In this document: in pieces, positions 8,332-28,306 of the stretch | Numbering within the stretch: the stretch's first letter is position 1 | Layout of the letters: every line of letters begins with the position of its first letter | Assembly: GCF_024704835.1 (NCBI RefSeq) | Contig: NZ_JAMXBE010000010.1 | Span: 1-64,000, forward strand | Length of the DNA: 64,000 nt | Reading direction: 5' to 3' | From: Parapedobacter tibetensis | Lineage (GTDB): Bacteria > Bacteroidota > Bacteroidia > Sphingobacteriales > Sphingobacteriaceae | The notes under the pieces: generated by a model | Told to the model about the DNA's origin: nothing | Seen by the model: the letters and a program-made list of their open reading frames with translations, nothing else | Database searches by the model: none | Program-made: the position numbers and the translations under genes

Positions 8332-8362
8332 ACGTTTGAATATGTATACCAATGGGTATCCT

Positions 8363-8581
8363 GAAACGATTCACGCTGTTATTCCACGGCAAGTCCCCCC
8401 ATTGGCGGAAAGCGGCCGATGCGATAAACACCATGCCAAAAATCCGGCGATTTCGGATTAGGGAATGTTTTCTATGGATTCGTGAGCGGATTTCACGGAT
8501 TCGTGAATCCCCTTTTAGCATACGCTCCAGGTTGGACGGAGCACAATTCATCACACGCATATTAACCTAGCATCCACCCAC
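8363..8581. repeat. Dispersed ~210 bp repeat, copy 2
   Basis: Direct-orientation copy of the block at 167-372, with the same opening (aaacgattcacgctgttatt), ggattcgtgag core and cacacgcatattaacctag ending. It differs by a ~30 bp insertion after the opening and loss of one ggattcgtgag unit. It closes the segment that contains the lipoprotein/toxin-like cluster. Confidence 0.8.
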
Positions 8582-8632
8582 TATCAAAGCCTTAGGAGAA
8601 GAAATTATTTTTATTTAAACAAACTTATTTCT

Positions 8633-8677
8633 TATCTTTGTACCGGAGGCTTTGCCAGCAGTGGCATTGCCTTTTTT
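8633..8677 (+). promoter_or_regulatory. Promoter -7 element followed at once by an intrinsic terminator
   Basis: A TATCTTTG box (8633-8640), matching the Bacteroidota -7 consensus TAnnTTTG, is followed within 7 bp by a GC-rich hairpin (8647-8671; arms aggc..gcc and ggc..gcct) and a run of six Ts. The expected -33 TTTG is only TTTA at the right distance. Transcription from here would stop after ~35 nt. The purpose is unclear; it may be a remnant or an attenuated promoter. Confidence 0.45.
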
Positions 8678-8679
8678 AT

Positions 8680-9519
8680 TTATACAACCGATATACTCCA
8701 TATTTCGTATTCTTCACCGTCATTGATTTCCCGGAATGTACGATAGCGTAAGGGTTTGATAATATTCAGGAACGAGTCGAGTTCGCGTCGGCATGTCTTG
8801 TCTAATTTGCCAGATCGGAAATTCCAAGAGAGAATGTAAGCCATGAAATCCACGATTTGGATTCCGGTTGTCAGGTCGCTATGTACAAAGAACGGTTCGG
8901 GGATGATTAAGCTAGACCGGGTCCGTCCCTTTCGAGTACGTTTGAAGTATTTTTCCATCTGATCGAGCACCAAATGGCTTGCAGATTTATCCAGTTCGTC
9001 GAACACTACGATTCCCTGATGTTCATCGTGTTTATCTTCCAGAAAATAATAAAACCGTTCAAATAAATACACATAGTCCTTACGCAGCATATGATCTTCG
9101 TCTGGTAACGTAGTATGGTCATGTACGATAGAGGCGAAAACCTTACAACGGAATTGGTGACATAGTTCAAGGAGTTGAGTCACGTAGTCCAGCTTGGCCT
9201 GAGCCAGTGCGGTTAGGCTTTCTTTGGTAACCTGTTCTCCGTTATCCAATGCCGATTTTGCCAACATCGTTCGGCTTTCTAACGGAATCGTTGACATTTG
9301 GTTAGCCAAACGGAATGTCTTGCGTTTCAAAAACTTCTTTGCCTTAATTTCGTTCCGCGTATCACGGTATTTACGACCGAAACACTTCATCTCTAAATCA
9401 TGAACGGCTTTAATCATCGTCCACAAATCGTCGTCAAGGATGGCAATACCGGCTAAAACCTCGTAAGGAGAATCGTGATGATCCTGCCCACTTTCATCGA
9501 TGAACATAAAATAGGCCAT
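8680..9519 (-). CDS. DUF3800 domain protein (RNase H-like fold)
   Basis: The 279-residue product begins MAYFMFIDESG, the signature opening of DUF3800, whose members have an RNase H-like fold with conserved acidic residues. Further expected elements are VVFDELDKS near residue 172 and GIQIVDFMAYI near residue 225, where an Asp completes the putative active site. Family members are scattered in genomic islands, prophages and defence regions; no defined reaction is established. The gene is transcribed alone, and a TACATTTG -7-like box lies ~40 bp upstream within an inverted repeat. The family assignment is secure; function is unknown. Confidence 0.85.
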   Translation of the reverse strand: MAYFMFIDESGQDHHDSPYEVLAGIAILDDDLWTMIKAVHDLEMKCFGRKYRDTRNEIKAKKFLKRKTFRLANQMSTIPLESRTMLAKSALDNGEQVTKESLTALAQAKLDYVTQLLELCHQFRCKVFASIVHDHTTLPDEDHMLRKDYVYLFERFYYFLEDKHDEHQGIVVFDELDKSASHLVLDQMEKYFKRTRKGRTRSSLIIPEPFFVHSDLTTGIQIVDFMAYILSWNFRSGKLDKTCRRELDSFLNIIKPLRYRTFREINDGEEYEIWSISVV

Positions 9520-9932: not shown

Positions 9933-10214
9933 CAATCTTTGTTTGTTGCCAAATTTAGCCAATTATGCTAGCTACGCAAGTTTGGCCGGTGATTAGGTAT
10001 CACCTTCCGGTTTCCCGTAATGTCCTCACCATTCCTTCCGTTACCTTTGGCTAATCAAAATTTGTAATTGTCAATCGGATGTTTTACCTTGCATGTTATA
10101 ACGACCATATAAGCCAATAGGCCTAAGAAATACATTTAATGAGACAACAACAACATATAATCAGCCCAATTCACTAACCATTAACTATCAATAAAACGAC
10201 CAACACAAACCATC

Positions 10215-10748
10215 ATGCGTAAGCGTATCGTCTACCTTTTCCTCGTATTGGGGTTCCTACTGCCTGCGGCTTCGAATGTGCAGGGTAGGGAAGTGGCCTA
10301 TACCACTACCGAGCAAAAGGACGCCACGGTATATATTACCAAAACAGGGGAGAAGTATCACCAGGCAGGGTGCCGGTATTTGGCCAAAAGCCAGATTAAG
10401 ACCACCAAGAAGGAAGCTGCGAAGAATGGATATGGAGCGTGTAAGGTGTGTAAGCCATTATGGAAGTGGTTGACGCAATTATATACCCCATTCACCAGTT
10501 TATGGGAAACCGTAAGGGAATGGGTTTTCGTAGGGTTAGTTTTGGGAAATTGGAAAGCCGGAGGCGGTTGTATATCTAGGTTTTCAATAGGACGGGATGA
10601 GTATGACCTTATAATAGTGAGAATAATTATGACAATGAGAGTTCGAGTCTCTCTCTGGGCCAATCCAAATTGCGTGTCACGGAATAATGTAAGTGGCCCC
10701 TCGATACAAACAAAGAAAACGAGGACGATAAAACACTTAATAAGTTAA
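10215..10748 (+). CDS. Secreted protein with Ada-like Cys motif; C-terminal half probably not original
   Basis: A signal peptide (residues 1-24) is followed by a short domain with Cys53 in YHQAGCRYLAKS and Cys76/Cys79 in GACKVCKP, the metal-binding pattern of small Ada-like proteins. Homologous proteins normally stop soon after the CxxC, near residue 82. Here the frame runs on for ~95 residues, through a tRNA-Leu fragment at 10612-10661, to a stop at 10748. The tail is therefore most likely fortuitous translation of unrelated DNA joined to a truncated gene. Confidence 0.55.
   Translation: MRKRIVYLFLVLGFLLPAASNVQGREVAYTTTEQKDATVYITKTGEKYHQAGCRYLAKSQIKTTKKEAAKNGYGACKVCKPLWKWLTQLYTPFTSLWETVREWVFVGLVLGNWKAGGGCISRFSIGRDEYDLIIVRIIMTMRVRVSLWANPNCVSRNNVSGPSIQTKKTRTIKHLIS
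10612..10661 (+). pseudogene. 3' fragment of a tRNA-Leu gene (possible attachment-site scar)
   Basis: Positions 10637-10653 form a perfect T-arm: stem GAGAG/CTCTC around the loop TTCGAGT. The next bases TCTGGGC match the 3' acceptor strand of Bacteroidota tRNA-Leu genes, whose 5' strand is GCCCAGA. The preceding ~20 bases resemble the long variable arm of tRNA-Leu. No 5' half or GCCCAGA is present upstream, so this is a fragment, as left when an integrative element uses the tRNA 3' end as its att site. Confidence 0.55.
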
Positions 10749-10813: not shown

Positions 10814-11047
10814 ATGGGTGGAAACTTAAGAGAATTTAAGAAATGCAATTTATTTTATGTCTGGAATGTTAATATAAAGACCTCATCATCCACTCTTTTT
10901 ATTTTTTATATAGATATGAATTCATATTTAAGCTCGAAAGTGATAGAAACATTTAGCAATATGTACTGAAAGAGGAAGAGATGACAGTAGAGGAAGTATT
11001 AAATTATCCTTTTTAAATAGGCAAACTATTGAGTAAATAATTTCAAT
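10814..11047. other. AT-rich leader of the drt3 operon
   Basis: About 230 bp of AT-rich sequence between the sbcD stub and drt3a. It should carry the operon promoter, but I find no exact TAnnTTTG box. A tiny frame at 10981-11016 (MTVEEVLNYPF) and a short one at 10917-10969 are too small to support as genes. Confidence 0.4.
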
Positions 11048-12559
11048 ATGATAGACCAATCATTTTCACGGAAAAACATAGAAGAAATCTTTGATGCTGA
11101 AAATAAGAGAGGAGTAAATATTGAGCGCATGTTTGAAGGTGCTTTCCGTGAAAGTATCGCGCTTACTGCTGACTTAAAGAGTATAAGAAAGCAAATCAAG
11201 TTTACCCATGATCTTGAAACTAGAAAATCACTAATTGACGACCTAAACAATCAAACGGAAACTCGAAAAGAAATATTAACAGATATTTTTGAGAATATTT
11301 CTAATCATTTAAAAGGCTATAATCCAGAAGTTATTCATAAGCTAATTGACTCCAAGAGTTGTTATACCTTAAGCCCTACAGTTGAAAGCTTTTTTTATTC
11401 TAAAATAATTCAGAAAAACCTCCGAGATACCTATAAAATCAAGCAACTTTCGAGATATCATATTTTAAAGTCTGTTATCCATTTTGTGTCGGATAAATTC
11501 CCAAAAGTTATCATTAGAACTGACATTAAAAACTTCTACGAAAGCATCCCTCAAGAAGATATCATCAATCAATTGAGCAACGACCATCTTGTCACAGTAA
11601 ACACAAAGAGATGCATCCTAAATATATTGGAGAGCTTCAACAGTTTAACTGGGAATACTGTAAAAAAAGGTTTACCTAGAGGCATTGGCATTAGTGCTTA
11701 TCTGTCTGAGATCTACATGCGGCAAATAGATAAGCAGATTAATAAGATTGAAGACTTAGTTTATTTTGCACGGTATGTTGATGATATTATCGTAATATTT
11801 GTTCCTTCCCAAAAGAATCTATATACCGCAGAAGATTACATAAATGAAATTAAAAATATCATCCAAATAGAATCTAATGGGGCATTAGTAATAAATGAGG
11901 AGAAAACTAATGATTTTGACTTGCAATCTGATTCCAAGGAGATTGTTATAATAAAGAATGAATTTAACTCAGCATCCTATTCCATAAAAGATATCAAATA
12001 CGACAAAGGAATTCAATATCTAGGTTATTTCATTGGATTAAAAGAAACCAAAATAATAAGGGATGGCACGACAAAACTATCTTACGAAATCGCAGTTGAC
12101 ATATCAGACAAAAAGGTAAAAGACTATAAAACTAAAATCAAATTGTCGTTTGAGTATTTTATAAGAAAAAAGAAACACAACCCTAAATATGCATTCGAAT
12201 TATTAAGGAGTCGATTAATATATTTAATGACAAACACTCAATTAAGTAACAACAAATCAAATGTTTTCGTAGGGCTGTATTATTCCTATCCATTTATTAC
12301 CGAAAATCTGAATCTGAAAAAACTTGACAGATCATTGGTTTATTACACAGGACGAAGCAGATTGAGTTTTGATGAAAAACTAAAATTGAAAAATCTATCC
12401 TTTGCTGAATATTATAGTAAAAAGGAGTTTATGAAACATTGTTTGAGTAATAAGAAATATAAAAATTATAATGCCGTTGATTCGAATTCAATTAATTTAG
12501 AAAATAATGGCGTTCTGAAATTTGGTATAAGAGAAATCACATCTATCTGGAAAAAATGA
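11048..12559 (+). CDS. drt3a: Antiviral reverse transcriptase Drt3a (UG3-type), DRT type 3 defence
   Basis: The 503-residue product has reverse-transcriptase motifs in order: IIRTDIKNFYESI with catalytic Asp159, the LPRGIGISAYLSEIY stretch near residues 209-224, and FARYVDDIIVIF with the YVDD box at 243-246. A helical N-terminal region (1-120) precedes the palm and a ~230-residue C-terminal region follows. The stop overlaps the ATG of a second, larger RT gene by 4 bp (ATGA). Tandem small-plus-large RTs with a downstream RNA are the defining layout of DRT type 3 (UG3+UG8). Composition is far more AT-rich than the flanks, indicating transfer. The assignment rests on architecture and motifs, not on a database search. 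Confidence 0.85.
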   Translation: MIDQSFSRKNIEEIFDAENKRGVNIERMFEGAFRESIALTADLKSIRKQIKFTHDLETRKSLIDDLNNQTETRKEILTDIFENISNHLKGYNPEVIHKLIDSKSCYTLSPTVESFFYSKIIQKNLRDTYKIKQLSRYHILKSVIHFVSDKFPKVIIRTDIKNFYESIPQEDIINQLSNDHLVTVNTKRCILNILESFNSLTGNTVKKGLPRGIGISAYLSEIYMRQIDKQINKIEDLVYFARYVDDIIVIFVPSQKNLYTAEDYINEIKNIIQIESNGALVINEEKTNDFDLQSDSKEIVIIKNEFNSASYSIKDIKYDKGIQYLGYFIGLKETKIIRDGTTKLSYEIAVDISDKKVKDYKTKIKLSFEYFIRKKKHNPKYAFELLRSRLIYLMTNTQLSNNKSNVFVGLYYSYPFITENLNLKKLDRSLVYYTGRSRLSFDEKLKLKNLSFAEYYSKKEFMKHCLSNKKYKNYNAVDSNSINLENNGVLKFGIREITSIWKK

Positions 12560-14739
12560 GATACAAGAAATCAATTGGCTACAAAGATGCTAGAGTAGTA
12601 TTGTCTGATATATTACCATATGAAGTACCTCCATTCTTCAGTAATAGAAAATTTTATGATTTCATTGTTCAATTCAACATTCATATTGAAAATAATAAAC
12701 TTAAAATAAAAAAAGGTTTATCTGATGAAATCAGAAACATCATTATACTACTGTTTGGGTTAGATTTTAGAAATAGTAATTTTGTCCGAACTGATTCAAA
12801 TGAAAAGTATGACTATTTTAAGATACCAAACAAACATAATCAAACTATTCCTTTTGATTTTAAGATCTCGCATAAAGATAATGATTATAGGAGATTATTT
12901 GTCATCCATCCCTTTAGTCAACTTGAGATAATTGATTTTTATAAAAAGCATAATTCTACAATGCTTTACTATACTTCTCGATCTAAATTTTCCCTCCGAA
13001 AACCACATAGAATCGCCTCATTACGATTCTTTAAAAACACACTTAAATCTCAAAAGGCAAAAGCAGAAGAATTCATTGAGCTAGATAAAAAGGAATACAG
13101 AAGCTTAAAAACATACTTCTCTTATGAAAAATATAGCAATATTTATAAGTATTATGAATCTTACGACTTTCAAAGAGCTGAAAAAAAATTCAATTTCCTC
13201 TTGAAATTTGATATTTCGAGATGCTTCGACAGTATTTATACTCACTCGATTATATGGGCCACAATTAATAAAAAAGCTTCAAAAGACAATCTGAACTGCA
13301 AGGCGACCTTTGGACATGACTTTGATACACTAATGCAAAGGCATAATTACAATGAAACAAATGGCATTGTAATCGGGCCAGAATATTCAAGAATTTTTGC
13401 AGAAATCATCCTGCAAAAAGTAGATCATAATGTAGAGAACACACTTGATAAAAGAGATAAAAAGAATAACCTTGATTATGAAATTGCAAGATATGTTGAT
13501 GACTATTTTATTTATTACAACGATCAAGATGTTAAAGAGCTTATAATCTCTACTTTCAAGAAGGAGCTTCAAGAATACAATCTATATTTTAACGAATCGA
13601 AAACAAAAGAATATTCCAAACCCATTATCACGGAAATATCTATTGCTAAGGAGGAAATAAAAAAGCTCCTGAATAATTCTATCATCTTCAAATTTAACGA
13701 GAATAAACCAGAAGGAATAAGGTATTATCTTGCGAAGGACATTATAACAAACTATAAACGTATTCTAAAAAGCACCCAAACTAGTTATAAGGATTTACAA
13801 AACTATTTTTTAGCGAGCATATACAGAAATTTGACTAAGCTCTTTAAAGAAATATCTAAAGAGCAAAATGCATTGATAAAAATCTATAAAGATTTAAGAA
13901 CAGCTCCGTCATCGGAGGATCTCAACCTAAGGTTTGCAGAAGTTTCGTCGGATTTAAAAAAAAAGCATAAAAGCTTGGTGAATAAGATAATGGAAATCAT
14001 TGAGCTTTCATTTTTTATTTATACCGTTTTGCCTAGAGTCTCCTATTCAATAAAGCTATGTCAGGTTTTAATTACTATCATTTCTTTCATAAAAAATGCT
14101 GAAAAAACAGTCAATATGCTGAAAATGAATGGTGTAATAATTAAAGACAGTAATATTCTTCTAACGTTTGATTTTGACACTAAACATGATATTTTTAAAC
14201 GAATATATGATGGAATAGCCACAATATTAGGCAAGAAGGTCATTAATGAATACTCTGAGATCGAAACATTATATTTATTACCAGTCATTGAAAATCTCGG
14301 TAAAGAGTATAGTGTCAGTAACGATATATTAAACAAACACTTTTTATTAGATCAACCAGAAAAAAGTACAAATTATTTTACTATCACCTTCTTGCTAACA
14401 TTTCTAAAGGGCGACTCAACTTATAAAAGTCTTATTGAAATATTGCAGGGCAAAATTCTATATAGATTGAAGCATTTCAACCCAAAGGAGACAGAACATA
14501 TCTTCCTCTTATTTGAAACTTTAACAAACCCGTATTTTGGCTATAACAAGAATAATCTTAATGAGTTTAAAACCAAAGTTTTGGATTCCATACGTTTTTT
14601 TGCGAACAATATATCTAGTGCTGACAAGAATAATTTCATATCTTCGATTTCAAATTTTAAAAAAATGTATTTTTTTGATTGGAGAAATCCTAACTTTGGA
14701 AAAGAGCTTAATACTAAAAGAGGGCACGAAGTTTACTAA
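12556..14739 (+). CDS. drt3b: Antiviral reverse transcriptase Drt3b (UG8-type), DRT type 3 defence
   Basis: The 727-residue product has FDISRCFDSIYTHSIIWA with catalytic Asp219, NGIVIGPEYSRIFAEIILQ at about 269-287 and EIARYVDDYFIYY with the YVDD box at 313-316. A distinctive N-terminal segment (RLFVIHPFSQLEIIDFYKK, residues 113-131) precedes the palm, and a ~350-residue helical C-terminal region follows. It is translationally coupled to drt3a. From memory of recent work, Drt3a copies an AC-repeat template in the ncRNA into poly(GT), and Drt3b makes the complementary poly(AC) without a nucleic-acid template. Nothing in this sequence contradicts that, and an AC-repeat lies just downstream. Confidence 0.85.
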   Translation: MRYKKSIGYKDARVVLSDILPYEVPPFFSNRKFYDFIVQFNIHIENNKLKIKKGLSDEIRNIIILLFGLDFRNSNFVRTDSNEKYDYFKIPNKHNQTIPFDFKISHKDNDYRRLFVIHPFSQLEIIDFYKKHNSTMLYYTSRSKFSLRKPHRIASLRFFKNTLKSQKAKAEEFIELDKKEYRSLKTYFSYEKYSNIYKYYESYDFQRAEKKFNFLLKFDISRCFDSIYTHSIIWATINKKASKDNLNCKATFGHDFDTLMQRHNYNETNGIVIGPEYSRIFAEIILQKVDHNVENTLDKRDKKNNLDYEIARYVDDYFIYYNDQDVKELIISTFKKELQEYNLYFNESKTKEYSKPIITEISIAKEEIKKLLNNSIIFKFNENKPEGIRYYLAKDIITNYKRILKSTQTSYKDLQNYFLASIYRNLTKLFKEISKEQNALIKIYKDLRTAPSSEDLNLRFAEVSSDLKKKHKSLVNKIMEIIELSFFIYTVLPRVSYSIKLCQVLITIISFIKNAEKTVNMLKMNGVIIKDSNILLTFDFDTKHDIFKRIYDGIATILGKKVINEYSEIETLYLLPVIENLGKEYSVSNDILNKHFLLDQPEKSTNYFTITFLLTFLKGDSTYKSLIEILQGKILYRLKHFNPKETEHIFLLFETLTNPYFGYNKNNLNEFKTKVLDSIRFFANNISSADKNNFISSISNFKKMYFFDWRNPNFGKELNTKRGHEVY

Positions 14740-14947
14740 CATAAAGATTCATGGAGAAATCTAAAAGCCTTAAAATTATTGGTAGAGTTTCTAATTTTGA
14801 TGTGGACGGCTTTTCTCAATTTCTTCATTGAAATTTTGAGTGGCTTTTTAAGTGAAAATTAGTGATGGATAGGTAACCAACACACACAATCTCCCAAAAA
14901 GCAATTATTGTTTTTATGAGACGAGCTTAGAGAACTCGTCTCTTTTT
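14740..14947 (+). ncRNA. Candidate DRT3 non-coding RNA with ACACACACA template-like motif
   Basis: The ~208 nt after drt3b has no coding frame, but it has hairpins (arms aaaatta/taatttt at ~14772-14798; ctcaatttc/gaaattttgag at ~14815-14840), an exposed ACACACACA at 14880-14888, and a strong terminator at 14918-14947. A TAATTTTG box at 14792-14799 could be a -7 element giving a ~140 nt RNA. A TAACTTTG inside drt3b at 14691-14698 is a second candidate. DRT3 systems carry an ncRNA, and an AC-repeat template is what the known mechanism requires. The 5' end is unproven. Confidence 0.7.
14918..14947 (+). terminator. Intrinsic terminator of the drt3 operon/ncRNA
   Basis: A perfect 8-bp stem, GAGACGAG (14918-14925) with CTCGTCTC (14935-14942), closes a 9-nt loop and runs directly into TTTTT. 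It ends the AT-rich island. Confidence 0.9.
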
Positions 14948-15156
14948 GTTTACAATAGATTCAGAGATCACATTGTAATGTTGCCCCGCCCCATTGTTCT
15001 GCAAGTCGATTTTAGACCAGTCAGGGCAGCCGTACTGGTAGTTACGGCACTTTTGACTGCTTTATTGTCGCCTTATCATCATGCCAGATGCGGCTTTATC
15101 TAAACATCTACCGCATGTAACCAACATGGTTGTTTAGCTTTATTCAGCCACCTCTG
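14948..15156. other. Intergenic between drt3 and abiE
   Basis: About 210 bp. A 41-codon frame at 14978-15103 (+) has an ATG and a hydrophobic middle (VLVVTALLTALLS), but nothing else supports it as a gene. The abiEii gene ends at 15157 on the other strand, and I see no clear terminator for it here. Confidence 0.35.
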
Positions 15157-15948
15157 CTAAATCCTCTCCAACAATTCCGATTTTACCAATTCGTAAGCCT
15201 TCTCGTTATCGTATTCCACGCCGGGGCGTAGTATAAAGCTGATGTCCTTTGTGAACTCAGGATCTTTCATTTTTTCTTCCATGTTGAGTATGAACATTTT
15301 TTGCGTCGGCGGCTGGGCTACCGAGAAGTCCATATATGCTTTATAGCATTCGATTATTTTGCCTGTATCCAGCTTCATGTTTTCCAAAGCCCAATACAAG
15401 TCAAAGAGATCGCGTCCTTTGCGACGCTGGTACAGCGCACGAAGCTTGGTGCTCAATAATTCTTCCGGAAGGTACGTGTGTAAGGTGCATTCACCCGTGA
15501 ACCAACCATTGTTCACTACAAAGGGATAATTCTCAAATCCGAATACGCTGAAATGTTCTTTGCAATTGATTTCGATTTTTAACCGCATATTAATCACCGG
15601 CGCAATCTCCGAATCGAACCGGTAAATAATGGTGTTGTTATGCGCACGTGGCATCACGGTACGTTTCAACCCAAGGAACTTCAACCGGTCACGGATGCGT
15701 TTCAGTATGGGGCCAATGGCACCTTCCTTCACTTGTACCAGATCAATGTCCTCGGAATATCTGATTTGGGGTGACAGGTAGAGCTTGTGTAGCGCCGTTC
15801 CTCCCCGGAAGGCGAGATGCTCATGCAACATTTCATCGGTGAACAATTCCACCAATGCACGCTCGATGACAAGGTCTTGCTCCACCTGTGCGTTGTCAGG
15901 CCATGGCGCATGGTTTTTCCATTCTTCGATATACCGGCGTGGGATCAT
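15157..15948 (-). CDS. abiEii: AbiEii/AbiGii-family nucleotidyltransferase toxin
   Basis: The 263-residue product shows the nucleotidyltransferase core typical of AbiEii: LAFRGGTALHKLYL followed by RYSEDIDLVQV (the GGTAL and S-E-D-I-D active-site elements, about residues 48-74). GRDLFDLYWAL near residue 178 follows, as expected. In type IV toxin-antitoxin systems the AbiEii protein is an NTP-transferring toxin whose action aborts phage infection. The gene overlaps its cognate abiEi antitoxin by 4 bp and is co-transcribed with it. It sits directly beside the DRT3 operon, forming a defence cluster. Confidence 0.9.
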   Translation of the reverse strand: MIPRRYIEEWKNHAPWPDNAQVEQDLVIERALVELFTDEMLHEHLAFRGGTALHKLYLSPQIRYSEDIDLVQVKEGAIGPILKRIRDRLKFLGLKRTVMPRAHNNTIIYRFDSEIAPVINMRLKIEINCKEHFSVFGFENYPFVVNNGWFTGECTLHTYLPEELLSTKLRALYQRRKGRDLFDLYWALENMKLDTGKIIECYKAYMDFSVAQPPTQKMFILNMEEKMKDPEFTKDISFILRPGVEYDNEKAYELVKSELLERI

Positions 15949-16751
15949 AAATCTGCCTCCAGTTCCGTGTTCACGATGATTTTCCAGCGGTTATCCGAAT
16001 CGCCTTCTTTGCCCTTATTGGGGGATAGAGGGGTCAGGTAATACCGTTGTCCCTCCAAAACTCGGTATAGCGCTTCTGCCAATTTCTCCTCTCCGAGTTT
16101 GTCCAGTAGAAAGCCTAATCGCTGTATTGCTGCTATTTGCGGGTAGCGCTTAGCCGTTTGCAAAAGGCTGTTTATCTTGAACTTTTCGACCAGTTCTATT
16201 ATAATAGTGTAGCTTCGATTCAATCCGGTGCTTTCCAAATAATACAACAAATCCAGTGCGGTCAGTTCCGGTGTTGATACATTGATATAGCCCGCATCCG
16301 TTTTGATTTGGACAATGTCAGTTTCGTCCCATTCCTTTTTGACGTAGAAATTTATTTTCAAGCCATTGTTTTCGACAGCCCTTAATGGTGGCCGCTCAAT
16401 GACGACGAAATATTCCATCGGCTGTTGGTGGCTTGCACCATGTAGGGCGGACGCAGAAAGCAACCCTACATAATAGGATCTTTCAAGTGCTACCATCATG
16501 TCGTCGATAAACAACGCTGGAGGAATCATGCCTTGCCGAGCATACTCTGGGGATATAATTACATAATATCCTTTACGGATCTGTACAATACGGTTCTTCT
16601 GCTTTAGTCGGAAAAGCGCTTGCAGAAGCGCTTTTCCAGTCAATTCGAAATGTGCTTTGGTCTCTTCCAGCGAAAAGGCATGTCTACCTTGTGAACGCAG
16701 GTCATCCACAAAATCTTCTAACGTGCTGATATGCTGAATCAATGCGGGCAT
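15945..16751 (-). CDS. abiEi: AbiEi-type antitoxin and autorepressor
   Basis: The 268-residue product has an N-terminal winged-helix region (FSLEETKAHFELTGKALLQ through LKQKNRIVQIRKGYYVI). An AbiEi antitoxin domain follows (YYVGLLSASALHGASHQQP near 92-110, then TPELTALDLLYY). AbiEi proteins neutralise AbiEii and repress their own promoter by binding inverted repeats. Here a textbook promoter lies 35-65 bp upstream and a perfect 26-bp-arm palindrome immediately behind it. It is the first gene of the abiE operon, overlapping abiEii by 4 bp. Confidence 0.9.
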   Translation of the reverse strand: MPALIQHISTLEDFVDDLRSQGRHAFSLEETKAHFELTGKALLQALFRLKQKNRIVQIRKGYYVIISPEYARQGMIPPALFIDDMMVALERSYYVGLLSASALHGASHQQPMEYFVVIERPPLRAVENNGLKINFYVKKEWDETDIVQIKTDAGYINVSTPELTALDLLYYLESTGLNRSYTIIIELVEKFKINSLLQTAKRYPQIAAIQRLGFLLDKLGEEKLAEALYRVLEGQRYYLTPLSPNKGKEGDSDNRWKIIVNTELEADL

Positions 16752-16816: not shown

Positions 16817-16824
16817 GTTTATTG

Positions 16825-16879
16825 TAGTTTTTGTTTGCGAAACACTACGATTTTCGTAGTGTTTCGCAAACAAAAACTA
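16825..16879. repeat. Perfect 26-bp-arm inverted repeat, likely AbiEi operator
   Basis: Arms 16825-16850 and 16854-16879 are exact reverse complements of 26 bp with a 3-bp centre (ttt). Each arm contains GCGAAACACTACGA. It abuts the -33 side of the abiE promoter, where an autorepressor would bind; it could also form a cruciform. Confidence 0.85.
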
Positions 16880-17033
16880 AAGTAGTTTAGCGGTCGAACT
16901 GCGGATCACCTCATCACTCAAACCCCAATCTTCCTCAACAACTCCCGCAGTAGTTTTTGAAAACGCATTAAAATCGTTGTGTCGGAGGTTCAGGCATCAA
17001 ATAAAGAAGGTATTCTATGATACTCATTAGTGA
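16880..17033. other. Intergenic between abiE and XRE gene
   Basis: About 150 bp. On the minus strand a short start-less frame reads FQKLLRELLRKIGV before a stop at about 16919, which looks like the C-terminal end of a lost gene. No promoter or terminator recognised. Confidence 0.3.
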
Positions 17034-19550: not shown

Positions 19551-19560
19551 ACCACTTGAA

Positions 19561-22500
19561 ATGAAAACAACCATATCACTGATACTATTCCTATGCTTTG
19601 CCGGAATGGCAGCATTTTCCCAGCAGGAAGTAATGGGAGTTGTACGATCAGCGGAAGACCGTGCTTCACTTAGCGGTGCCAATGTCCGTTCCATCTCATC
19701 TGGCGGTTCGGCCACTACAGACAGCGAAGGCCGTTTCCGGCTTTCTGTATCTGCGGGTACGGATACCATACAGGTGACCTATATAGGCTATATCACACAG
19801 CGTATACCTATTAACAAGATGCGGATCCCCGAAACCATCGAGATTTACCTCGAAGCAGATGCATCCACATTAGAAGAGGTGGTCATCAACACCGGCTATT
19901 ACAAGGTGCCGAAGGAAAGGGCTACGGGTTCATTTACCCATGTCGATAACAGCCTGCTTAATCGCAGCGTGGGGTCCAATATCCTCCAGCGGTTGGAAGG
20001 TATCGCTCCCGGCGTACAGTTTGTCAATGCTAACGGCGCCTCAGCCTCGGACATCCGTGTGCGTGGTGTGGCCACCATCGAATCGGACGAGACCCCGCTC
20101 ATCGTGGTTGATAATTTCCCCTATGAGGGGGATATCAACAGCATCAACCCCAACGATGTCGAGAGCATCACCGTACTACGCGATGCGGCAGCAGCCAGTA
20201 TATGGGGTGCCCGGGCCGGCAATGGCGTGATTGTGATCACCACCAAACAGGGACGGTACAACCAGCGAGCCAAGATCTCCGTCAATAGCAACTTCACGAT
20301 GGGGGAGAAGCCGGACCTGTTCTACAGCCAGAGTTGGCTGCCGAGTGCCACGGTGATGGATATCGAGAAGGAATTATTCGAACGAGGTGGGTATTACCTG
20401 GAATCGACCAACCAGCGTCCTTTCCCGGCTTACGTGGAGCTGCTCATCAAACATAAAAATGGATCGATCGATGACGCGGAACTGGCCCGGCAGGAAGCCA
20501 TCATGCGCAAGACGGATGTGCGCAACGAGGCCATGCGCCACCTGTACCGGGGAGAGTCCCACCAGCAATATGCAATCAACATCAGTGGGGGCGGTGAGCG
20601 CTACCGCTATTACCTCTCCACCGGATATGACCAAAACCGCAGCATACTGGTGGGCAATGGCAACAATCGCCTGAACATGAATTTGCAGAATACCTTTCAG
20701 CCGATCGATGGCTTGGAAATAACGGCGGGCATCTGGTATGCCCAACAACGGGCGACCAATAACGGATTGTCGCTGAGCAACCTCAATCCGGCCGCGGCAC
20801 AACAGGTATCCACCTATGTGCGCTTGGCCGATGAACAGGGCAATACGCTTGCCATTCCCCATGAACGGCGATTGGCTTACTATGACAGGGCAGAAGCTGA
20901 TGGTCTGCTCGACTGGCACTACCGTCCACTGGACGAATTGCAGCTGACCGACAATACTTCCACCGGCAATGAATATCGGCTGAACGCCGCGTTGCGCTAC
21001 CGGTTTCTTGACCACTTCAACCTGAACGTGACATACCAATACCTGCAGAGCAGCAGCACCGGCAAAAATTATTATGACGCCGATAGCTATTTCGTGCGCA
21101 ACCTGGTAAACCGTTTCACACAGGCCGACGGAAGCCGCATGGTGCCGCACGGGGCGATCCTGGACGGCGGGCGCAACACGGTTGGACGGAGCCAATCAGG
21201 GCGGGCGCAGCTCAACTACAGCCGTGATTTCGGCAGTGACCACAGCGTGACAGCCCTGACCGGTGCGGAGATCCGGGAAGCGGTCAGCGAAAGCTCACCG
21301 GGCTACCGGATCTACAACTTCGACCGCGAGCTGCTGACGGGCACGGCCACCTATAATTACAACCAGGCCTATCCGGTTCGGCCTTCGGGCAGCTCCCGTT
21401 TGCCCACGCCGCCGACGGGTTTGACCCATTACACCGATCGCTACCTCTCTTACTTCGGCAACGCGGCCTACACCTATACCGGTCGCTATACGCTCTCGGG
21501 CAGCCTGCGCTGGGATGGAAGCAATCTCTTTGGGGTAAAGACCAACCAGAAGGGGGTGCCGCTGTGGTCCATAGGCGGTAGCTGGAATGCGAGCAAGGAA
21601 CCCTTTTACGGGCTGGGCGATATCCTCCCGTACCTGCGTCTGCGGGCAACGTACGGAAGCGCAGGCAATGTCAATAAGCAGGTAAGTGTGTTCCCGGTTG
21701 TGCGGTTTACCACCAATTCCACTACGGGGCTGCCGGTGGCCAACGTGCAGAGCGTGGGTAACCCTTCATTGCGTTGGGAGCAAGTGAATACGTTGAATTT
21801 CGGAGTGGATTTCGCCAGCCGGAACAACCGGATACAGGGAAACGTCGAATACTATACCAAGTACGCGGAAGATCTGATTGGGGAGGACTTTATGGCCCCG
21901 TCTACGGGTATCAACAGCGCGGCTCGGCTCTCCAACCAGATCAACTACGCCAACCTGCGTACCCACGGCTGGGACGTGCAGGTCACCACGCGCAATCTGA
22001 CAGGTGTGTTGAACTGGCAGACAGGCTTTCAATTTAGCCATGTCCGCAACAAGGTTACGCATTTCAGCACCGCCGAAGTAAATACCATTGGTACGTATTT
22101 CACTAACCCACCCCCGGTTATCGGCCAATCCAGGGATGCGGTATATGCATTGCCTTGGCATGGGCTGGATGGCGACACAGGGATGCCGCTGGTGGACGTG
22201 GATGGACAAATGGGTATGGATTACGATGCTTATATCCGAAACTACGATGCAGATAAACTATTGATTGCCGGTATGCGTGTGCCGCCGTTTTACGGAGCGC
22301 TCCGGAATACCCTCGAATGGAAAGGAGTGCAGGTGGGGGTGAACATCGTCTGGAAGGCCGGTTACGTTTTCAGAAGGCAGTCCATATCACCGGGGCAGGA
22401 ATACAGCACCTCAGGATACCATATCGACTATTTCAGGCGGTGGCAGCGTCCCGGGGATGAACTGCATACAGACGTCCCCGCCTGGGCCGAGACGGTACAA

Positions 22501-22758
22501 CCTTACCGGAGCCAGTCGTACCTATATTCCGAGGCATTGATAACCGACGGCGATCAAATCCGCTTGCAGGATGTCAACTTATCGTATGATTTGCCCGTTA
22601 ACCAGACGCTGCTACTGCGGCGCATGAGACTATACGCGTATGCACGCAACCTGGGGATATTGTGGAAAGCCAACCAAGATGACATCGACCCGGACTATGT
22701 CAATGCAGAATACATCGCGCCAAGGATGTTTTCCGTTGGTGTGCAAGTGGATTTTTAG
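19561..22758 (+). CDS. SusC/RagA-family TonB-dependent outer-membrane receptor
   Basis: The 1065-residue product has a signal peptide (ISLILFLCFAGMAAFSQ). A carboxypeptidase-regulatory-like domain follows (VMGVVRSAEDRASLSGANV to about residue 100). The TonB plug begins near EEVVINTGYYKVPKERATGS and contains the SusC signature SITVLRDAAAASIWGARAGN, and a large beta-barrel ends in VGVQVDF. It imports oligomeric ligands across the outer membrane with its SusD partner, 38 bp downstream. No glycan-degrading enzymes are adjacent, so the ligand may be a peptide or another polymer. I chose the ATG at 19561, after the TlpA stop, since upstream in-frame codons overlap tlpA. Confidence 0.95.
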   Translation: MKTTISLILFLCFAGMAAFSQQEVMGVVRSAEDRASLSGANVRSISSGGSATTDSEGRFRLSVSAGTDTIQVTYIGYITQRIPINKMRIPETIEIYLEADASTLEEVVINTGYYKVPKERATGSFTHVDNSLLNRSVGSNILQRLEGIAPGVQFVNANGASASDIRVRGVATIESDETPLIVVDNFPYEGDINSINPNDVESITVLRDAAAASIWGARAGNGVIVITTKQGRYNQRAKISVNSNFTMGEKPDLFYSQSWLPSATVMDIEKELFERGGYYLESTNQRPFPAYVELLIKHKNGSIDDAELARQEAIMRKTDVRNEAMRHLYRGESHQQYAINISGGGERYRYYLSTGYDQNRSILVGNGNNRLNMNLQNTFQPIDGLEITAGIWYAQQRATNNGLSLSNLNPAAAQQVSTYVRLADEQGNTLAIPHERRLAYYDRAEADGLLDWHYRPLDELQLTDNTSTGNEYRLNAALRYRFLDHFNLNVTYQYLQSSSTGKNYYDADSYFVRNLVNRFTQADGSRMVPHGAILDGGRNTVGRSQSGRAQLNYSRDFGSDHSVTALTGAEIREAVSESSPGYRIYNFDRELLTGTATYNYNQAYPVRPSGSSRLPTPPTGLTHYTDRYLSYFGNAAYTYTGRYTLSGSLRWDGSNLFGVKTNQKGVPLWSIGGSWNASKEPFYGLGDILPYLRLRATYGSAGNVNKQVSVFPVVRFTTNSTTGLPVANVQSVGNPSLRWEQVNTLNFGVDFASRNNRIQGNVEYYTKYAEDLIGEDFMAPSTGINSAARLSNQINYANLRTHGWDVQVTTRNLTGVLNWQTGFQFSHVRNKVTHFSTAEVNTIGTYFTNPPPVIGQSRDAVYALPWHGLDGDTGMPLVDVDGQMGMDYDAYIRNYDADKLLIAGMRVPPFYGALRNTLEWKGVQVGVNIVWKAGYVFRRQSISPGQEYSTSGYHIDYFRRWQRPGDELHTDVPAWAETVQPYRSQSYLYSEALITDGDQIRLQDVNLSYDLPVNQTLLLRRMRLYAYARNLGILWKANQDDIDPDYVNAEYIAPRMFSVGVQVDF

Positions 22759-28252: not shown

Positions 28253-28306
28253 TTTTAGCCCATTAAAAAACGCCGCTTTCCGGTGGCGGCGTTTTTTATG
28301 GGTATC
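28174..28306. repeat. Segment duplicated at 57314-57446 (HTH gene 3' end plus terminator)
   Basis: About 133 bp, from tcccctcaagatcggtagca through the hairpin and tatgggtat, occurs again at 57314-57446 with only a few substitutions. This copy is the intact gene end. Confidence 0.85.
28258..28302 (+). terminator. Intrinsic terminator after the HTH gene
   Basis: AAAAAACGCCGC and GGCGGCGTTTTTT enclose a short loop (tttccggt); outer bases agccca/tatggg extend the stem. The same terminator recurs at 57392-57441. Confidence 0.9.

Follow-up and report, generated by a model that had tools for sequence, protein, structure and literature searches.

The closest described system is EcoDRT3 of E. coli (Wang et al., PMC13174585). 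It consists, like the locus presented here, of Drt3a, Drt3b and a downstream RNA with an AC template. Drt3a copies ACACAC into poly(TG), Drt3b makes poly(CA) on Tyr666, and both reverse transcriptases (RTs) are required; template mutants lose poly(TG) as well as defence. The DRT3 duplex is restrained by RecBCD, and phage Gam sets off abortive infection. Relatives of this E. coli system served as seed for the published DRT3 RNA model (all PMC13174585). The two strands of the duplex are made by two rules, one read from RNA and the other set by protein side chains.

A second DRT3 system, that of Deng et al. 2026, also resembles the locus in having the same two RTs and the template motif, as described in PMC13314766 and PMC13213688. 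Its Drt3b is 650 aa long, compared with 667 aa in EcoDRT3 and 727 aa here. DRT10 (UG17) differs: its RNA lies upstream of a SLATT gene and its RT is serine-primed (PMC12632851). A 2026 review lists as open whether there is one DRT3 architecture or subtypes with other repeat outputs (PMC13314766). A literature search in a collection with few subscription papers turned up no article that, by its title or abstract, dealt with the DRT3 RNAs of Bacteroidota.

Judging from its sequence, the window (the whole 64-kb stretch of DNA analysed) very likely contains an intact DRT3 antiphage system, probably acquired horizontally by its Bacteroidota host. The first-pass annotation had described a complete DRT3 operon with an RNA candidate, and the features that can be tested on sequence were all recovered: the RTs, YVDD boxes, gates, priming tyrosine, RNA and template. 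DRT3 itself is already known; the family-wide comparison refines the limits and structure of the RNA. This comparison shows the start of the RNA and the bounds of the template in most sampled loci, with one candidate exception, and the window adds a DRT3 case whose host has no detectable RecC.

The two reverse transcriptases and their conserved residues

The first gene, drt3a (11048-12559, + strand), encodes a Drt3a (UG3) RT of 503 aa, and the second, drt3b (12556-14739, + strand), a Drt3b (UG8) RT of 727 aa. Both frames are open over their full length and overlap by the ATGA at 12556-12559, as had been read at first. The start of the system had been placed at 10814; no assignable feature begins there, and the first coding base is 11048.

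The assignment to UG3 and UG8 held up in profile searches, in which the UG3/Drt3a and UG8/Drt3b profiles scored above other RT classes. Against PADLOC, the top profile for the first protein was Drt3a (1.7e-91, 305.7 bits), with RT_UG17 as the next other class (1.7e-19, 68 bits), and for the second Drt3b (1.5e-179), with Drt6 next (2.2e-45). Both proteins passed the NCBIfam equivalog cut-offs, with 334 bits for NF041747 (cut-off 200) and 659.7 bits for NF041748 (cut-off 350). DRT10 was considered as a label for the system and rejected, as the RT is best matched to Drt3a and not to UG17. Furthermore, the top sequence matches in the PDB are the solved Drt3a for the first protein (9z6y_A, 2e-20) and the solved Drt3b for the second (26cz_A, 6.7e-67; 9z6y_H, 1.5e-66). 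Entry 9z6y is presumably the DRT3 system of Deng et al. 2026. From its residue numbering, 26cz is taken to be the EcoDRT3 protein of Wang et al. (PMC13174585).

The Asp motif and YVDD box noted for each RT in the first pass are both in place. In Drt3a, the Asp motif RTDIKNFYES starts at aa 157, and YVDD occupies aa 243-246 (11774-11785); in Drt3b, the catalytic Asp is D219, and YVDD lies at aa 313-316 (Y313/D315/D316). Four residues of E. coli DRT3b are named in PMC13174585: E22, R71, R241 and Y666. In the 26cz/9z6y match alignment, the first three align with E23, R112 and R279 of the window protein. The counterpart of Y666 is Y727, the last residue, which stands in the invariant terminal tyrosine column of the family alignment. 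The gates named for the second solved system, Glu26 and Arg253 (PMC13213688), align with the same E23 and R279.

These positions hardly vary among the 116 aligned loci. The E22 column contains E in 106, D in 5, R in 1 and a gap in 4; the R71 column, R in 111, N in 1 and a gap in 4; the D182 column, D in 114 and a gap in 2. The Y and both D of the YVDD box are present in all 116, and the C-terminal column holds Y in 113, a gap in 2 and A in 1. R241 is found in 116 of 116, an invariance partly due to ascertainment, since one of the two peptide patterns in each relative search contains this residue. The gaps and the R trace to broken, cut or misread frames (L005, L007, L110, L112, L115 and L116), and the protein with A in the C-terminal column (L047) still ends with Y. 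Loci found by profile searches (except L127) or by tblastn against plasmids (H1-H8) agree on the Drt3b residues; L127 proved to encode another RT and was dropped as a Drt3b relative. A Drt3a homologue is located in the same locus as drt3b in 113 of the 116; in the other three (L005, L101 and L115), none was seen and drt3b lies at the edge of the available stretch.

Two observations concern individual relatives. The longest Drt3b proteins in the sample (L053, L069, L074 and L089; 781-792 aa) keep the terminal tyrosine. In the E. coli plasmid CP083496.1 (L007, 3483-5526), drt3b is split into two annotated reading frames; drt3a is present, as is a 7-nt AC run behind drt3b.

The AC run and the candidate RNA behind drt3b

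The candidate template of Drt3a, ACACACACA, lies at 14880-14888 (+ strand), exactly where the first reading had put it. It is the sole copy in the 64 kb on both strands; the chance expectation is 0.30, and at least one copy occurred in 24 of 100 shuffles. By itself, the nonamer is therefore weak evidence; its position and the conservation of the AC run are what make a strong sequence-based case for a putative template.

For this comparison, L001 (the window itself) was left out and L110 and L112 were dropped because of their broken drt3b frames; the remaining 114 loci, among them the window, were thinned to 106 on the basis of 3'-region similarity. The genome-contig part of the sample comprises the best 80 of 372 relatives, so that the sample leans towards the window. 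A run of alternating A and C of at least 6 nt is found within 300 nt behind drt3b in 106/106 loci, vs. a mean of 8.0 in the coding controls and 221/2120 shuffles. For runs of at least 7 nt, the figures are 99/106 loci, 3.67 and 65/2120; for at least 8 nt, 71/106, 1.17 and 20/2120; and for at least 9 nt, 17/106, 0.33 and 1/2120. The antisense GT run of at least 7 nt occurs in a single locus of the 106. Within 400 nt, the longest run measures 6, 7, 8, 9 and 10 nt in 6, 28, 55, 13 and 4 loci, respectively; the 6-nt run of L006 lies inside the next gene and is probably due to chance. In L124-L126, three additional loci from the profile searches, the runs measure 10, 7 and 7 nt. Conservation of the motif, on which the first-pass annotation had staked its reading, was thus borne out for the alternating AC run but not for the exact nonamer, since the runs vary from 6 to 10 nt. 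In DRT10, on the contrary, the template loop is described as poorly conserved (PMC12632851).

Downstream of drt3b, 208 nt (14740-14947) contain no recognisable gene, in line with the non-coding tail of ~200 nt with hairpins noticed at first. The candidate DRT3 RNA covers 14743-14947 (+ strand; ends approximate), on the basis of a clade covariance model and covariation. It is larger than first proposed: the structured part begins at about 14743-14753 and not at 14790. The stem P1 is formed by GGAGA (14753-14757) and TCTCC (14890-14894). It is followed by the P3 hairpin (14899-14913; strands 14899-14904/14908-14913) and the terminal P4 hairpin with T5 (14918-14947; strands 14918-14925/14935-14942), in which 5/6 and 7/8 pairs, respectively, are changed on both sides among relatives. 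An extra hairpin at 14815-14840 sits in an insertion common to the window, L015 and L016, and folds in these three sequences. A possible long-range P2 between TTGGT (14779-14783) and ACCAA (14876-14880) is suggested by complementarity. All these elements are on the + strand. The RNA differs from that of EcoDRT3 by this extra hairpin domain and by a stem placed directly after the template, with its 5' strand 14 nt behind the stop codon.

P4 has a perfect 8-bp stem, a 9-nt loop and TTTTT at 14943-14947, and its stem begins 30 nt past the last template base; the perfect terminator seen about 30 nt past the nonamer is therefore real as a structure, and P4 probably doubles as a terminator. Five sites with a perfect stem plus T run exist in the window on both strands, P4 among them; P4 is absent from a simple terminator scan because that scan takes loops of up to 8 nt. 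Elsewhere on the + strand, an identical 31-nt hairpin with a T run occurs at 28269 and 57409.

The minimum free energy fold of the window RNA includes P1, the insertion hairpin, P3 and P4, and leaves out the long-range P2. This fold is modestly stable (z -1.73; 8/200 shuffles equally good). At gathering thresholds, Rfam gave no match in the window. A promoter scan of sigma-70-type sites returned 21, vs. 23.6 expected from shuffling, and none ahead of the RNA; the RNA may hence be cut from the drt3b message.

Across the relatives, the 5' strand of P1 starts a few nt past the drt3b stop in most loci, and its 3' strand comes after the template, usually 0-2 nt away. The distance of the template from the stop varies from 24 to more than 200 nt. 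P1 was scored as the helix that the first 22 nt after the stop can form with the first 8 nt after the AC run. Over the 106 loci, the score is 12.45 for the loci's own pairs vs. 6.84 (sd 0.43) when the 3' flanks are permuted (0/500), with the relatedness among loci left in place by these permutations. In the 82 loci with a template less than 90 nt from the stop, it reaches 13.69 vs. 7.67 (0/500). A P1 helix with 4 or more pairs is found in 77 of these, which between them show 45 distinct forms, and is missing from 5; keeping a single locus for each form, together with one that lacks the helix, gives 13.41 vs. 7.01 (0/500). For the 24 loci with a template at least 90 nt from the stop, including the window, L015 and L016, support for P1 is weaker, with 8.23 vs. 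6.75 (8/500), and with a wider 5' window, 1/500 permutations reaches the score in the 20 distal loci without the window, L015, L016 and L006. When the 5' strand was sought anywhere up to the template, the mean was 15.26 vs. 12.61 with swapped flanks, and 26/106 loci stood out at the 5% level; the 22-nt limit is post hoc, having been set after this weak result. For a local P2 hairpin immediately 5' of the template, there is support in the 82 stop-proximal loci (10.74 vs. 7.8; 0/500) but none in the 20 template-distal ones, where 105/500 permutations reach the score.

The alignment of the window clade has 12 rows, 11 of them distinct. P1 is 98% paired, with 2/5 pairs changed on both sides. For P1, P3 and P4 together, 93.7% of the cells are paired and 14/19 pairs have changes on both sides (matched in 1/500 shuffles); covariation is 0.619 vs. 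0.258 in shuffles (0/500) and no more than 0.240 after sliding. As for further pair types, 37/500 shuffles reach their number, i.e., no clear excess. As P3 and P4 were first derived from the same clade alignment, these values are biased in their favour. RNAalifold on the clade alignments recovers P3 and P4 and misses P1, probably because MAFFT gaps the 3' strand of P1 and the enclosed length varies; P1 was afterwards tested by name in the clade and by permutation over the 106 loci.

A covariance model built from L017-L024 only, i.e., with the window, L015 and L016 excluded, matches the window at 14830-14952 (59.1 bits, E 5.7e-9; next match 0.78), so that the search proposed for the tail found the RNA with a model from relatives. 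The 5' strand of P1 is misplaced in this match because of the insertion. Over 92 loci, all 12 clade members are found; outside the clade, two weak matches are correctly placed and oriented (L055, E 0.46; L002, E 0.81), and there is one antisense match, in L019. In view of the few outside matches, this is a clade model and not a family model. Whether the RNA might extend into the 3' end of drt3b was also examined. The identical-codon fractions of the last two bins are 0.59 and 0.57 vs. a gene mean of 0.516 in the clade, and 0.50 and 0.47 vs. 0.431 in 67 stop-proximal loci, a rise too small for a claim.

An ordinary 3' UTR with a terminator at 14743-14947, behind genuine DRT3 RTs and with an AC run that is not a template, would account for P4 and its T5, which resemble a common terminator, and for the nonamer, which alone is not rare in 64 kb. 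This explanation is highly improbable given that the AC run is conserved, strand-specific and located beside a covarying stem, and that the E. coli template mutants cited above lose both product and defence.

Putative mechanism, host nuclease and a divergent locus

The preferred reading remains an intact DRT3 system, and since the named residues and the template are kept, the same chemistry as in E. coli can be expected by analogy. Drt3a would repeatedly copy 14880-14888 into poly(GT), probably stopping at the structure 5' of the template. Drt3b would prime poly(AC) synthesis from the Y727 hydroxyl, and E23 and R279 would make A and C alternate; these steps are transferred from the E. coli systems. 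Poly(GT) and poly(AC) would then anneal to repetitive double-stranded DNA. Normally cleared by a host nuclease, this duplex would accumulate once a phage had knocked that nuclease out, and the infected cell would stop growing.

In the host genome, no match to RecC (PF04257) was found, while the E. coli control matched, and recD (TIGR01447) gave no match above the cut-off. Adjoining helicase-like and PD-(D/E)XK nuclease genes are present, AddAB-like as judged by domains only. With no RecC detected and this pair present, the published RecBCD control cannot apply unchanged; the restraining nuclease may be AddAB-like. Alternatively, the undetected RecC and a promoter scan below the shuffled expectation could point to a relic whose sequence is intact but which, lacking a promoter or the right host partners, is not expressed or does not work in this host. 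This is very unlikely: both frames are open over their full length with all the named residues, the RNA retains compensatory pairs, and the host has a GreA homologue. Moreover, RecC is present in only 1/9 Bacteroidota-phylum genomes with Drt3b matches (the window's included), so its absence is usual for such hosts.

To return to the preferred reading, the comparison indicates that the sampled relatives, which come from very different bacteria, keep the AC template together with the gates and priming tyrosine of Drt3b. The RNA scaffold varies freely, yet the AC template and the Drt3b gates stay. A tentative reading is that the DRT3 template stays frozen because protein encodes the strand that partners it, and that in hosts without detectable RecC the duplex would guard an AddAB-type nuclease and not RecBCD. 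In DRT10, which has no second templating enzyme, the template reportedly varies (PMC12632851).

A divergent DRT3 pair (L006; L128, 3500-3630; genome G039, contig C14) would offer a natural test of the frozen-template rule. Its Drt3a-like protein scores 239.3 bits, and also 171.9 bits against RT_UG17; its Drt3b-like protein scores 386.2 bits and keeps the gates and the terminal tyrosine. No AC run of at least 7 nt lies just behind drt3b. The likely RNA, directly upstream of drt3a, has a fold z of -5.41 (0/200 shuffles equally good), with a stem GGGCGAGG/CCTCGCCC around a loop and ACACAACACA adjoining the 3' strand of the stem. Although a single case, the locus may represent a subtype whose RNA has moved and whose repeat is five bases long, with ACACAACACA as the template. 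Among 164 genomes of its order, the only match is the locus itself; relatives were found neither in viral contigs nor, at 80% coverage, in plasmid records.

Relatives, origin and surroundings of the operon

The closest relatives among the matches listed belong to Sphingobacterium (70-71% identity). Together with a SusC/RagA receptor at 19558-22755 (TIGR04056), they fit the Bacteroidota host proposed from the letters. Single-protein scans of the genome contigs and viral contigs gave no relatives; an alignment query did recover them. Drt3b matches at E 1e-40 are rare: 6/395 genomes in a sample of the phylum have one, counting that of the window, and 7/395 in a sample of the class, one of these being the other RT L127; the two samples overlap.

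In a midpoint-rooted FastTree of 104 Drt3b proteins, the window groups with L015 and L016 (support 1.0), within an 11-member clade (support 1.0). A group of 17 loci with distal templates is set apart (0.82) from the other 87, of which 81 have the template less than 95 nt behind the stop. Within the distal group, L105 matches EcoDRT3b both in protein length (667 aa) and in where the tyrosine lies (Y666). Near relatives of the system of Deng et al., e.g., L099-L102, also have a distal-template RNA, unlike the window.

The operon with its tail has a G+C content of 29.7%, compared with 45.7% for the window, and no Drt3b match at E 1e-40 turned up in the genus's 8 other genomes; both fit acquisition. 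Directly behind the operon, an AbiEii toxin (PF08843, 3.9e-34) and an AbiEi antitoxin (PF09407, 2.2e-24) are encoded at 15157-16751 (- strand), which suggests a small defence island at this site. Ahead of the AbiE genes, an inverted repeat at 16820-16884 has 31-nt arms, 94% complementary and 3 nt apart. On the opposite side of the operon lies a DUF3800 protein (8680-9519, - strand; PF12686, 1.7e-20). The stretches at ~8360-8909 and 10002-10456 have several similar copies (~80-98%) on other contigs of the same genome, and part of them is also present in other genomes of the genus, a repeated cassette beside the operon.
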